NCBI GenBank assembly: GCA_903930515.1
Contig: CAIYYW010000041.1
Location: 1 to 15,259, forward strand
Direction: 5' to 3'
Origin: an uncultured delta proteobacterium
Lineage (GTDB): Bacteria; RBG-13-61-14; DRUE01
DNA length: 15,259 bases
Shown here: piece after piece, positions 1,051-15,259 of the stretch
How positions within the stretch are numbered: position 1 is the stretch's first letter
How the letters are laid out: each line of letters begins with the position of its first letter
Made by a program: the position numbers and the translations under genes
Notes under the pieces: generated by a model
Databases searched by the model: none
Told to the model about the DNA's origin: nothing
What the model saw: only the letters and a program-made list of their open reading frames with translations

Positions 1051-4449
<3,399 letters not shown>

Positions 4450-4453
<4 letters not shown>

Positions 4454-5685
4454 GGGCCGCTCCGGCAATTTTGCTGGAATTTTTGAAAACCGGGCAGGCC
4501 CTCAATCATCGAGTCCAGGTGATCGGAAATGATCCGGTTGCCCCAGGCATTGGGATGACCGCCGTCAACCATAATATATCCAAGCGGATATTTCCGGACC
4601 TGGCCGCCCAGCTCTTGCCGGTATTTTTTCTTGAACTCGGAATCCAGTTGGCCGCTGACAATTTCCTGTTCCGATTCCGCGAACAATCCGCGCAAATCCA
4701 GCAGGGGCGTCTGGATTTTATCCGCGGCCTGCCGGTTGATCTTAAGTAGATCCCATTCTTCCCAGCTCGGGGGCAACTGCAAATTCATTTGGCGCGCGTT
4801 TTTGATAAAGGTGTCGGTCACCGGGTCCACCGGCAGGGAAGGGAAATCGCTGTTCAGGATGATCAGATCGCACCCGCTCCGGCCGCATTCCTGTTTGAGC
4901 AGCGCCAAATTATTCTGATATTCTTCCGGGCTGACCTTCCGCTTCACCCGCATCGCCAGTTTTTGCGGACTGAATTTGAATCCTTCTTCAGCCCGCTCAG
5001 CAAGGATCACCCCGCATTTGAGCAGCAGATAAACCTGGCTCTGGCTTAAAAATAAATCCAGTTTGCTCCGGTTCCAGGATCCTTTTTCAAACTGCTCCTG
5101 GTCGGAGAAGATCGCCGGCATCCGGTCGTTCTGTCCGAAGCCGACTATCACCAGGTCCGGGCGCAGGTTTTTGGCAAAGCGGAAAAATAATTGACGGCCC
5201 TGGAAGGAGGAGTATCCGGAAGTTCCCAGGTTGATCACTTCCATCTTGCAGCCGGGATGCTTTTGCCGGAGCAGGTTTTGAAGCTGGGCCGGGTAGGTTT
5301 CGGAATCCTCCAATGACCAGCCAAAGGTCACGGAATCCCCCAGGCAAATGATCCGGTAAACTCCGGACGGCTTTGGCATCTGGAAATCTGGTCCGCGGAA
5401 TCCGAAGTTGTTGATCCGGGCCGGCTTGAGATGGACGCCCTTGACCTGGAGCGACTGGTTGGGGCGCAGTCTCCAGAACAAATCTTTGTCAAAGATGATG
5501 GTCCGGTTGTAGCGGCGCATCGCTTTGGACATATCCAGAACCGGCAGTCCCAGCGCCGCAACCGGCAGGTTGAAATAAAAATTGAAATCGTGGACCCGAA
5601 GAATGGTTTCCACGCTCCCGAAAAAAAAGCAGACGACCAGCAGGGAATAAAATAATCGGCGCCGGAAAGGGATATTATTTTTCAT
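4450..5685 (-). CDS. Membrane-anchored SGNH/GDSL hydrolase-like protein (second of three)
   Basis: 411 aa. Positively charged N-terminus (PFRRR) then one membrane segment (about residues 11-28), predicting an exported, anchored catalytic domain. Conserved linker RINNFGFRGPDF (90-101) precedes the SGNH core: GDSV with Ser118, NLGTSGYSSFQG with Gly157, GFGQND with Asn186, and VDGGHPN with Asp374/His377. Ser118, Gly157 and Asn186 have the same residue numbers as in the next protein upstream, which indicates a tandem duplication. The ATG at 5685 lies 11 nt inside the preceding gene; only a weak GGGT-type Shine-Dalgarno is visible, so translational coupling is likely. Function is probably ester hydrolysis or acyl transfer on an exported glycan; the substrate is unknown. 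Confidence 0.88.
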
Positions 5686-6859
5686 AATTCAATGACCCTT
5701 TGTCAGAATCAGTAGGTTGATCCGGGTTGACCAGCTCCTCAATCCTTTGCGCAAGATTTTCCGCGATCAAGCGATGGCCCGACTGATTGGGGTGGCCGTT
5801 GTCAACCATCAGGGATTTCCAGACATCGGTTTTGCCCCGGCCGAGGTGATCGGCGAAAATAGATTTCAGGTCAAGCAGGGGGATCCGGGATGGGCCGGCG
5901 ATTTTTTGGTTCAGCTCCAGGGAATTCCATTCCCGCCAATTTGCCGGCAAACCCGCATCATATTTCTTTCCCATTTGCTCCAGGCTTTGGGTGACCGGAT
6001 CAAGCGGCAGGCTGGGGAAATCCAGATTGAGCAAAATCATTTTGCAACCCAGCCGGTCGCATTCCTGTTTGATGGTTTCAAAATTATGTTGATATTCCTC
6101 CAGGCTGACCTTGCGCTTGAGCTTGTGGAAAAATGTTCGGGGATTCAGGCTTAACCCCTGGGTCCTGCGTTGTAAATAGATCACGCCGGCCTTGAGCAGT
6201 TTGTAAACCTGGCTGTGGCTGAGGAGCAGGTCCAGTTTATTCTTTTGCCAGGCGCGCGAATCGTACAATTCCTGGTCGCTGGAGAGGGCGGGGAGGCGGT
6301 CATTGGGTCCGAAGCCGAAAATGATCAGGTCGGGTTTCAGCTTTTGGGCGAAGGCAAGAAAAAGCTCCTTGCCCTGGAAAGAGGTGTAGCCGGTGACGCC
6401 GAGGTTGATTACTTCAATGGTTCGGCCCGGATATTTTATCCGCAAAAGGGATTGCAATTGCGCCGGATAGGTTTCCGAGTCCCCCACGCTCCAGCCGAAA
6501 GTGACCGAGTCTCCCAGGCAGATGATCCGGAAGGTGTCGGGCTTTTTCTCCAACTGGAAATCGGGACCGCGGAAGCCGAAATGGTTGATCCGAACCGGCT
6601 TGCGGTAAATTCCTTTGGTATCGAGGATTTGATCGGGCTTGAATTTCCAGAACACCGCCTGATCAAATTCCACCGTGTTATTCGCCACCCTCCGGAATTT
6701 GCTCAGGTCCAAAAGCGGCATTCCCAAAAGGTCCGCGGAGAAGTTGAAGTAAAACGGGAAATCATAAGCCCGCAAAATCGTTTCCAGGCCGCCGAAAAAA
6801 ATCACCAGCACGATCAGGGCAAAAGTCAGTTTGCGGCGGACCGGGATGGAATCAGGCAC
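5675..6859 (-). CDS. Membrane-anchored SGNH/GDSL hydrolase-like protein (first of three)
   Basis: 394 aa. An N-terminal anchor (VRRK, then a hydrophobic run at about residues 11-28) is followed by the RINHFGFRGPDF linker and an intact SGNH core: GDSV Ser118, NLGVTGYTSFQG Gly157, GFGPND Asn186, VDNGHPN Asp353/His356. It is clearly paralogous to its downstream neighbour over most of its length, including the N-terminal region (ETILRxxDFxFYFN). The start is GTG at 6859, with GGAGG 9 nt upstream inside the end of the GT4 gene, giving an 8-nt overlap. The charged C-terminal tail after the His block is short and non-conserved. Expected role: anchored esterase or acyltransferase acting outside the inner membrane; the substrate is not visible from sequence. 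Confidence 0.88.
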   Translation of the reverse strand: MPDSIPVRRKLTFALIVLVIFFGGLETILRAYDFPFYFNFSADLLGMPLLDLSKFRRVANNTVEFDQAVFWKFKPDQILDTKGIYRKPVRINHFGFRGPDFQLEKKPDTFRIICLGDSVTFGWSVGDSETYPAQLQSLLRIKYPGRTIEVINLGVTGYTSFQGKELFLAFAQKLKPDLIIFGFGPNDRLPALSSDQELYDSRAWQKNKLDLLLSHSQVYKLLKAGVIYLQRRTQGLSLNPRTFFHKLKRKVSLEEYQHNFETIKQECDRLGCKMILLNLDFPSLPLDPVTQSLEQMGKKYDAGLPANWREWNSLELNQKIAGPSRIPLLDLKSIFADHLGRGKTDVWKSLMVDNGHPNQSGHRLIAENLAQRIEELVNPDQPTDSDKGSLNYEK

Positions 6860-9421: not shown

Positions 9422-10366
9422 CTTCGCGCGCTCCAGAGTTCACGCAAACCCGGATACCGGCTTGAAATCAAATGGCCAAGTTTAAATCCCGGAGCGGTTT
9501 TGGAAAAATTGCTCTTCCGGAATCGGAGGTCCGCGGGGAGGAAATGCAGGAAATCCATGCGGGCCTTGAGCGCCTGGGTCTTGCCGGAGAGAAGCGCGCC
9601 CAGCAAGGATGCCCATTCGTAAACCAAAATCCAGGGGAGGTTTTTCAGGATCAGGGTTGCCTCCCAATTCCGCAGCAGGCTGCGCAGGCGATTCCGGGGG
9701 AGATAGTAATTCTTGATCCCCATCCCGGAGGTGGTTGCCGACCCGAGATGATACACCAGCGATCCCGGCTGATAAACCGCCTTCCAGCCGGCCCGCTGGG
9801 CGCGATATGCCAAATCCGCGTCCTCGTAATAAATGAAAAAATCCTCCGGATAAAAACCAAGCTCCTGGAGCATCTTGCCCCGGTACAGTCCGGCCACGCC
9901 GCAGGCTCCGAAAACTTCGGAGCGCGCGTCGTTTTTTTCCGGCTTAAGAAGATAGACCAATCCGTTCCGGCCCGGATAAATTCCGCCGGATTCGAATTTA
10001 TTGCTTTTTTTTGCCGATCACCTTGCAGGCCACCATCCCGATCTTTTGATCCGAGTCCAGGGCCGCGACCATTTCCCCGATCCAATCTTTATCCGCGACC
10101 GCGTCATTATTGAGCACGGCAAGATCCTCTCCCCGGCTCTCTTTCCAGCCCGCGGCGCAGGCATAAGCAAATCCCCGGTTTGCCCCCAGTTCAATCAGTT
10201 TGACGCGCGGGAATTGCCCGCGGATTTTTTCCAAAGACCCGTCGCTCGATCCGTTGTCAACCACGATCACTTCAAAATCCTTAAATCCCTGGCCCGACAG
10301 GCTTGCCAGGGATTCCAAAATAAAAGGATCGCCGTTGAGATTAACCATTATTACCGAAACCCTCAT
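9418..10366 (-). CDS. Glycosyltransferase family 2, reading frame broken by a homopolymer frameshift
   Basis: Two frames together make one GT2 protein of about 315 aa. The N-terminal part (10366 to 9998, 122 aa) starts MRVSVIMVNLNG and carries VVDNGSSDGS and the DxD-like LNNDAV. It ends in KKKQ-stop just after a run of eight A (plus-strand T at 10005-10012). Dropping one A continues into the C-terminal part (stop at 9418), with ESGGIYPG, YYEDADLAYRAQRAGW and VYHLGSAT, in the order expected for rhamnosyltransferase-type GT2 enzymes. The ATG at 10366 overlaps the previous GT2 stop as ATGA; an ATG at 10396 is too early. Either a sequencing or assembly error, a real inactivating mutation, or transcript slippage at A8 could explain the break. 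It is paralogous to the GT2 upstream. Confidence 0.82.
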
Positions 10367-11343
10367 TGGATTTCCCGCCGGCCCTTTTTCATCCAACTCA
10401 ACAACTCGCCCAGTTTGATCGTCCTGATCTTTTTTACCGCTTTCCGCTTTTTCCCGCGGAGCGGAAATGAAAAAAATCCCGTTACGGTCCCGGCCAGGAA
10501 CTGAAGGATCCGTCCGGAATAAAACAGGTGATACCCGAATCCCCTAAGCCATCCCCAGCAGACCCAGGGCCAGAGCAGCGCGATAATAGGGAGCGGCCAA
10601 TTATCCCCGATCAAATACCATCGGTTCCGGCTGATCCAGTAAACCCGCTTCCCGCTCTCCATCCTTTTCCCGCCCGGCTGATCGCTCAAATCCGTGCCCG
10701 CGGAAAAATGATAGATCACCGCCCCCGGAACCAGCATCCCCTTGGCCCCGGCCAGGCGGGCTCTGAGGAAAAAGTCTATGTCTTCAAGGTAAGCGAAATA
10801 ATCCGGATCAAATTTACCGATCCGGTCCAGTAATTTTTTCCGGATCATCACCCCGGCGCCGGAGGCGAGGAACACCTCGGCAGGTTTGAGCAGTGCGGGA
10901 ACCGTTTCATTTTCCAGGAACGGATAGGGCCGTGCTTGCCAGGAATATCCCACCCCGGCGCTTTCAATTTTCTCGCGCGACTCCGATTGGAGGATGAGGG
11001 AGGCGAAGAAATCCATCTCTGGAAAATTGGCCGCGGCTTCTGAAAGTTGTTCCAGCCAGGCCGGCTCCGCGATGGCGTCATTGTTGAAAAGCGCGACCAG
11101 TTCGCCCCGGCCCTGCTCAATTCCCAAATTCACCGCTTGCGCGAACCCGAAATTCTGGTCCAGCCGGATTAGTTTGGGCCGGATCGGATGTTGCTCCAGA
11201 ATCCGGAGCGAGTCGTCCTGCGAGCCATTATCAGCCACGATCACTTCAAAGTCGCGGCAATCCTGACGGCCGAGCGAATCCAGGCATTGGCCGAGAAAGG
11301 CCGCGCCGTTATAGTTCGGGATGATGACGCTGATTTTCGGGAT
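10363..11343 (-). CDS. Glycosyltransferase family 2, apparent ATC start
   Basis: 326 aa when read from position 11343. The first residues (PKISVIIPNYNG) are the classic GT2 beginning and are required for a complete GT-A nucleotide-binding fold. They are followed by VIVADNGSQDDS, the DxD-like FNNDA (87-90) and YLEDIDFFLRA (about 185-195). The C-terminus has a hydrophobic segment (LPIIALLWPWVCWG) and a basic tail, suggesting membrane association. The first conventional start, GTG at 11244, would delete about 33 residues and has no ribosome-binding site. AAGGAGG lies 5 nt before an ATC codon at 11343-11341, and an in-frame stop just upstream (near 11370) leaves no ATG, GTG or TTG. It is the first gene of the train. 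ATC may be a true rare start or a base error for ATG. Confidence 0.85.
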   Translation of the reverse strand: MPKISVIIPNYNGAAFLGQCLDSLGRQDCRDFEVIVADNGSQDDSLRILEQHPIRPKLIRLDQNFGFAQAVNLGIEQGRGELVALFNNDAIAEPAWLEQLSEAAANFPEMDFFASLILQSESREKIESAGVGYSWQARPYPFLENETVPALLKPAEVFLASGAGVMIRKKLLDRIGKFDPDYFAYLEDIDFFLRARLAGAKGMLVPGAVIYHFSAGTDLSDQPGGKRMESGKRVYWISRNRWYLIGDNWPLPIIALLWPWVCWGWLRGFGYHLFYSGRILQFLAGTVTGFFSFPLRGKKRKAVKKIRTIKLGELLSWMKKGRREIQ

Positions 11344-11348
11344 CTTGA

Positions 11349-11355
11349 CCTCCTT
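11349..11355 (-). promoter_or_regulatory. Strong Shine-Dalgarno that decides the first GT2 start
   Basis: AAGGAGG on the minus strand, followed by the 5-nt spacer TCAAG and then ATC. It is the strongest ribosome-binding site seen in the window and sits exactly where the GT2 N-terminus begins, so it marks the true start in spite of the non-standard codon. Confidence 0.75.
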
Positions 11356-11363
11356 ATCTTTAT

Positions 11364-11391
11364 ATTCTCAATTTTTCCCGGTTTTGAGCAA
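11364..11391 (-). promoter_or_regulatory. Possible promoter for the minus-strand gene train
   Basis: TTGCTC (11391-11386), a 16-nt spacer and GAGAAT (11369-11364) form a weak sigma70-like pair giving a leader of about 14 nt that just includes the Shine-Dalgarno. An alternative -10 (TAATAT, 11409-11404) lacks a visible -35. Only the position before the first gene of the train makes this worth listing. Confidence 0.3.
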
Positions 11392-14020: not shown

Positions 14021-15259
14021 TCAATCTTGTTTGGAGAAAATTTTTCCGAGAATATTTTGGAAAAAGCCCGGCCGCGATTTGCGCTTTTTCCCGGACGGTT
14101 TGGTCTTTTTTGAAACGGCCGGGGAAGGCGCAGACTCTTTGGCCGGAGCGGAATCGCTGAAATCAACCTCCACCTTTTGCGGTTTCTCCTCGGCCTTTTT
14201 CGGGCCGGTTTCCGGGACTTTGATATGCCGCTCCCGGGTCAGGGTCCTGGTGATCACGGTCTCGGCGGCGCCGGAGGAGGCGGCTTTTTTCGGCTCGATC
14301 AGGTTTTGATGCAAGGTCTTGCTTTGGGTTCCGGATACCTGGATGATGGATTTTTCCTGCTTGCCGGTGTCGGGGTCAAGTGCGGAAACGGACAGGATCC
14401 CTTCGGGGGAGATGGTGAAAGTGACTTCCATCCGGGCCTGTCCCTTGAGGGCCTGTCGTAATCCGGAGAACTGGAACTCTCCGATCGGGATGCATTCTTT
14501 GGCATTGGGGCTGTCTCCCTGGAGGATGGAGAGGGTGAGGCTGGCCTGGTTGTCTTTGCTGGTGGTGAAGATTTTTTGCTTCTGGTTGGGCACGGAGGAG
14601 TTGCGCGGGAAAATGCTCATCACATTATTGCCCCCGACCTTGATCCCGATCGTGATCGGAAGAACATCCAGAAGCATCAGGTCCTGGTCCCGGCCCCTGG
14701 CGATAGTGTCCGCGAGAATGGCGGCCCCGATCGCAACCGCCTCGTCCGGATTCACCGCCTTGCTCAGGGGTTTTTGGAAAAATTCCGCCACCTTGGTCGC
14801 CACTATCGGGATCCGGGTGCTGCCTCCCACCAGGATCACCGAGTCCAGTCCCTCCGGCTTGATCTTGGCGTCCGCGAGCACCTGGTCGCAGGTCTTGAGG
14901 GTGGAATTCACCAAGTCCATAATCAATTGCTCAAAGGACTCGCGCTCCACCGTGAGGTCTATATTCACCGGCCCGCTTTCGCCCATCGCGATGTAGGGGA
15001 TATTAATCCGGGCGCTGGTCCGTCCGCTTAGTTCGATCTTGGCCTGCTCGCAGGCGTCCAGAATCCGCTGGTGCGCGACCGGGTCTTTGGAGAGGTCCAG
15101 GTCGTGATCTTTTCCGAATTTATAGAAAACCCATTCGGTGAGCCGTTGATCGAAATCCACTCCTCCCAGGAAGGTGTCCCCGCCGGTGGCCTTGACTTCA
15201 AAAATATGGTTGCGCACTTCCAGGATGGACATATCAAAAGTTCCTCCGCCCAAATCATA
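14021..15259 (-). CDS. Hsp70/DnaK-like protein, partial, apparently without the alpha-helical lid
   Basis: Only the C-terminal 412 aa are in the window; the gene enters at the right edge in YDLGGGTFDMS, the phosphate-binding loop of the Hsp70 ATPase domain. Visible: LGGVDFDQRL, the adenosine-site block VILVGGSTRIP, NPDEAVAIGAA, linker LLDVLPITIGI, then the substrate-binding beta domain (SVPNQKQKIFTT to SIIQVSG). After about residue 308 from the first in-window Gly-Gly-Gly block the long helical lid expected in DnaK is replaced by about 100 residues of Ala/Glu/Lys/Pro-rich tail ending in a short basic/hydrophobic segment (RPGFFQNILGKIF). This suggests a specialised Hsp70 paralog rather than the housekeeping DnaK. 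No grpE or dnaJ is visible. It is followed directly by the radical SAM gene. Confidence 0.85.
   Translation of the reverse strand, partial: YDLGGGTFDMSILEVRNHIFEVKATGGDTFLGGVDFDQRLTEWVFYKFGKDHDLDLSKDPVAHQRILDACEQAKIELSGRTSARINIPYIAMGESGPVNIDLTVERESFEQLIMDLVNSTLKTCDQVLADAKIKPEGLDSVILVGGSTRIPIVATKVAEFFQKPLSKAVNPDEAVAIGAAILADTIARGRDQDLMLLDVLPITIGIKVGGNNVMSIFPRNSSVPNQKQKIFTTSKDNQASLTLSILQGDSPNAKECIPIGEFQFSGLRQALKGQARMEVTFTISPEGILSVSALDPDTGKQEKSIIQVSGTQSKTLHQNLIEPKKAASSGAAETVITRTLTRERHIKVPETGPKKAEEKPQKVEVDFSDSAPAKESAPSPAVSKKTKPSGKKRKSRPGFFQNILGKIFSKQD

Follow-up and report, generated by a model that had tools for sequence, protein, structure and literature searches.

Where does translation begin in a gene that has a strong ribosome-binding site but an ATC in place of a start codon? 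The window analysed here, a 15,259-nucleotide stretch of DNA from an uncultured delta proteobacterium (contig CAIYYW010000041.1), carries on its minus strand a GT2 glycosyltransferase gene (PF00535) that, read from this ATC, spans 10363-11343 and comprises 326 codons plus a TGA stop (10365-10363). Around its 5' end the minus strand reads, in codons, TGA GAA TAT AAA GAT AAG GAG GTC AAG ATC CCG AAA ATC AGC GTC ATC ATC CCG AAC TAT AAC GGC. The arrangement described in the original prediction, AAGGAGG, 5 nt and then ATC ahead of the GT2 N terminus, is thus present: the Shine-Dalgarno (SD) core (11349-11355) is separated by the spacer TCAAG (11348-11344) from the putative near-cognate start (11341-11343). 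The core forms part of an extended SD, TAAGGAGGT (11348-11356), whose 9-nt match is the longest among the called genes of the window (enolase comes second with 7 nt), in keeping with the earlier view of this site as the best in the window. The upstream stop that had been described is a TGA at 11368-11370, eight codons 5' of ATC, and inspection of the frame between this stop and residue 34 revealed no ATG, GTG or TTG. As had also been predicted, the frame offers no canonical start codon before the GTG of residue 34 (11242-11244), the likely pick of automated callers.

The locus was compared across three genomes of the phylum, namely the window genome, one congener and one order-level relative. 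The congener contig CAIUDS010000347.1, from an uncultured delta proteobacterium in a sediment sample, shares the gene order of this region and encodes a syntenic ortholog with 66% amino acid identity to the GT2 gene. Identity at the three codon positions (71%, 79% and 50%) follows a pattern of constraint, and a pseudogene was rejected because the GT2 frame is both intact and constrained. The congener reads TGA GAA TAG ATG GAG GAG GCT GTC ATA CCG AAG GTT AGC, with ATA at the homologous codon; AGGAGG is kept at the same 5-nt distance, while all 5 of the spacer bases differ. The same frame also contains an ATG five codons before this ATA, and that ATG might be used as a start. No SD was found before the upstream ATG, whereas GGAGGAGG, 5 nt before ATA and inside the ATG frame, is able to serve ATA alone. 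The order-level relative, reading ATG AAC CGC TCC CTC CCC GAG ATC, has CTC at the codon homologous to ATC and an ATG four codons further out. Uniform ATG starts among orthologs, set beforehand as the pattern that would speak against a near-cognate start, were therefore not what was found. Conservation of an AUH start within the genus is supported by these sequences but falls short of proof because of the in-frame upstream ATG of the congener and the canonical ATG of the order-level relative. A +1-frame start with a subsequent frameshift was rejected, as the matching upstream frame of the congener stops at a TGA before the site. A conserved leader structure was also sought, but the predicted folds of the window and congener leaders disagree.

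How unusual such a site is within the genome was surveyed through all occurrences of AAGGAGG followed, after 4 to 8 nt, by ATC, ATA or ATT (ATH), each tested with its surrounding sequence for a convincing coding frame lacking a canonical start upstream and within the next few codons. Of the 126 distinct sites, just 2 precede a convincing gene that has no canonical start available. One is the GT2 gene; the other is infC, recovered by a survey not aimed at it and hence a positive control. Because 5 nt is also the commonest distance between AAGGAGG and canonical starts in the genome, and so few of the sites are convincing, the SD before ATC goes beyond chance. Among 786 sampled genes with a visible 5' end (~1.1 Mb, partly picked for contigs with AAGGAGG-ATC sites, so that proportions are approximate), the best SD of a canonical start was as long as 9 nt in four. 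Inspection of the same 1.1 Mb and 786 genes, with SDs of at least 5 nt and with CTG included, yielded no convincing further near-cognate gene. Four sampled genes had no canonical start: the GT2 gene, prfB, an open reading frame (ORF) apparently interrupted at a T7 run, and one more ORF. The prfB gene (L110, G000:C310, minus strand, ~1608 in reverse-complement coordinates) was rejected as a near-cognate case, being explained by an apparent programmed +1 frameshift at CTT TGA within CGG GGG TTT CTT TGA C. The first of these ORFs (L084, G000:C11, minus strand, ~7926 in reverse-complement coordinates) is long and coding; its 5' part continues in a different frame across the T7 run, which looks like a further frame break at a homopolymer.

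In all three genomes, infC itself appears by inspection to start with a near-cognate codon: AAGGAGGGAAGTCCC-ATA in the window genome, AAGGAGGCAAGTTCC-ATA in the congener and AAGGAGGAGAACG-ATC in the order-level relative (loci L111, near 14569-14600 of G000:C292, L042 and L041). It therefore seems that AAGGAGG followed by a near-cognate AUH start is in use in this lineage. Together with the congener's ATA and its SD at the same distance, these infC starts support the earlier proposal that the GT2 gene has a rare start of the infC type. A gene for IF3 is present in the window genome, where ATA makes up 5.9% of Ile codons (a figure for this genome alone). The pattern for the 16S 3' end, and with it the anti-SD, was not found in the three genomes, so the function of the SD is argued from AAGGAGG enrichment and general knowledge; a scan for sigma-70 promoters gave no site.

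Three other explanations of the ATC were weighed. That the gene starts instead at GTG 11244 is hardly credible, even though no canonical start codon comes before it in frame and an automated caller would choose it. A reading of the sequence showed no SD suitably spaced before it, and the coding signal in codon usage already spans the frame from its 5' end. Read from ATC, the protein matches PF00535 with 97.6 bits over profile positions 1-166 of 168 (Pfam cut-off, 23.3), whereas from GTG the match falls to 58.1 bits and begins at profile position 30. The GTG start would thus truncate the N terminus as the original prediction warned, at a cost of 39.5 bits and profile positions 1-29, and the N-terminal GT2 domain is complete only when the gene is read from ATC. 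Solved GT2 enzymes likewise align from query residues 1-4, chain residue 1 of the SpsA structure being aligned to query residue 2. By comparison with other GT2 glycosyltransferases the encoded protein is ordinary, and its start codon alone is unusual. A base error or minority variant, with ATG in the true genome at 11343-11341 where the assembly gives ATC, is more plausible yet still unlikely. The source is a 401-contig metagenome-assembled genome (a status taken from its fragmentation and from the record of the congener), assembly breaks occur nearby, including one at an A8 run in the next GT2 gene where the congener frame is intact, and roughly 2-3 of the 74 orthologs lie in more than one frame, a count that omits two of five listed rows judged by inspection to be one paralog and one antisense match. 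However, no fewer than two of the other breaks are one-base shifts inside homopolymer runs, whereas an error here would be a G-to-C change, and near-cognate starts occur in this genome anyway, as infC indicates. Since the congener was assembled independently and has ATA rather than ATG at the homologous codon, an error at ATC would need to coincide with that independent ATA. Both this ATA and the SD kept 5 nt before it therefore favor a near-cognate start rather than a base error.

The remaining explanation concerns history rather than data quality: an ancestral upstream ATG could have been lost in the window species, leaving AUC as an accidental fallback, or the gene in decay, with no selected control. 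Indeed, points against an AUC start are that the ancestral start may have been canonical and upstream, given the ATG of the congener (ATG GAG GAG GCT GTC ATA) and that of the order-level relative (ATG AAC CGC TCC CTC), and that the latter has CTC where the window genome has ATC. We nevertheless consider such a loss rather improbable: the congener ATG lacks the SD that ATA has, the remaining gene is intact and constrained, and the SD before ATC ranks with the genome's strongest. We thus return to initiation at AUC, which is argued for by the absence of any other usable start, a near-perfect and optimally spaced SD, coding from the 5' end and the AUH codon of the congener. The GT2 gene probably begins at AUC, which is likely a genuine, weak near-cognate start that keeps output low.

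If so, the extended SD would hold the 30S subunit at the site, and initiator fMet-tRNA would pair with the AU of AUC despite the mismatch at the third base. IF3 would reject most of these complexes, reducing output to a fraction of the AUG level, and the N-terminal peptide of the product would be MPKISVIIPNYNG or PKISVIIPNYNG. A second GT2 gene follows, and its ATG (10364-10366, minus strand) overlaps the stop of the first as ATGA, an overlap also seen in the congener; infrequent initiation at the first gene should therefore limit the second too, by translational coupling. The two glycosyltransferases heading a glycosyltransferase/GDSL-hydrolase cluster would likely be kept at a low dosage, which may be sensitive to IF3. 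Considerably more tentative is the possibility that the genus has retained AUH as a class of codon (AUC/AUA), placing the glycosyltransferase pair under infC-like, IF3-dependent control; were this true, such control would tie glycan synthesis to the capacity for translation initiation.

Near-cognate starts have published precedents. In Escherichia coli, infC starts with AUU and is the classic self-regulated initiation-factor gene. The GT2 gene resembles infC in pairing a strong SD with an AUH codon and lacking a usable canonical start, and the two share the same AAGGAGG core in the window genome. It differs in that its codon is AUC and its product a glycosyltransferase, such that any effect of IF3 would be one-way, whereas the infC product regulates its own gene. 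In Staphylococcus aureus, infC (AUA), cvfC1 (AUU), ccpN (AUA) and citZ (AUA) combine such starts with extended SDs; reporters of the latter three yielded ~10% of the AUG level, a figure that for ccpN reached as much as 30% in rich medium. Conservation in relatives was seen for cvfC1 and ccpN, the former of which opens its operon (PMC13009471). All of cvfC1, ccpN and citZ share with the GT2 gene an extended SD and an AUH start; in those genes initiation and its efficiency were measured, whereas the GT2 start, in another gene and phylum and with AUC, is known from sequence alone. As far as the citing account goes, E. coli pcnB, with an AUU start (Binns and Masters 2002, cited in PMC13009471), is likewise a chromosomal gene other than infC with a near-cognate start, which limits pcnB; it is a different gene with a different codon, and its start, unlike that of the GT2 gene, was tested experimentally. 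We judge that the GT2 gene joins this known kind, as a translation-dampening near-cognate start heading a glycosyltransferase cluster. What sets the case apart is its AUC codon, its being one of two such genes found in the genome, and the ATA of its sister. A full-text search found natural bacterial AUC starts to be scarcely documented, its three matches being two papers on eukaryotic initiation and one on Bacillus subtilis RNase Y. Callers limited to ATG, GTG and TTG would mis-start the GT2 gene and cut away the first part of its domain. Such genes could be screened for cheaply by a strong SD and an AUH codon without a canonical start, with infC as a built-in positive control.

The surroundings of the gene have features of their own. 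The second GT2 gene (10366 to 9418, minus strand) is split into two frames at the A8 run GGCAAAAAAAAGCAATAA (window positions 9998-10017), where the congener counterpart is one intact frame; the break may be an assembly indel, a real frame break or A-run slippage. Three consecutive and mutually similar GDSL/SGNH-hydrolase-like genes lie at 3380-6859 (minus strand), adjoining enolase; the Pfam check covered the first of these (5678-6859), and two neighboring copies are ~47% alike across species. On the other side, a gene of the 2-hydroxyglutaryl-CoA dehydratase D-component family (PF06050; 11473-12450, plus strand) runs divergently, 129 bp from ATC, and the intergenic stretch between them shows, in parts, good conservation with the congener.
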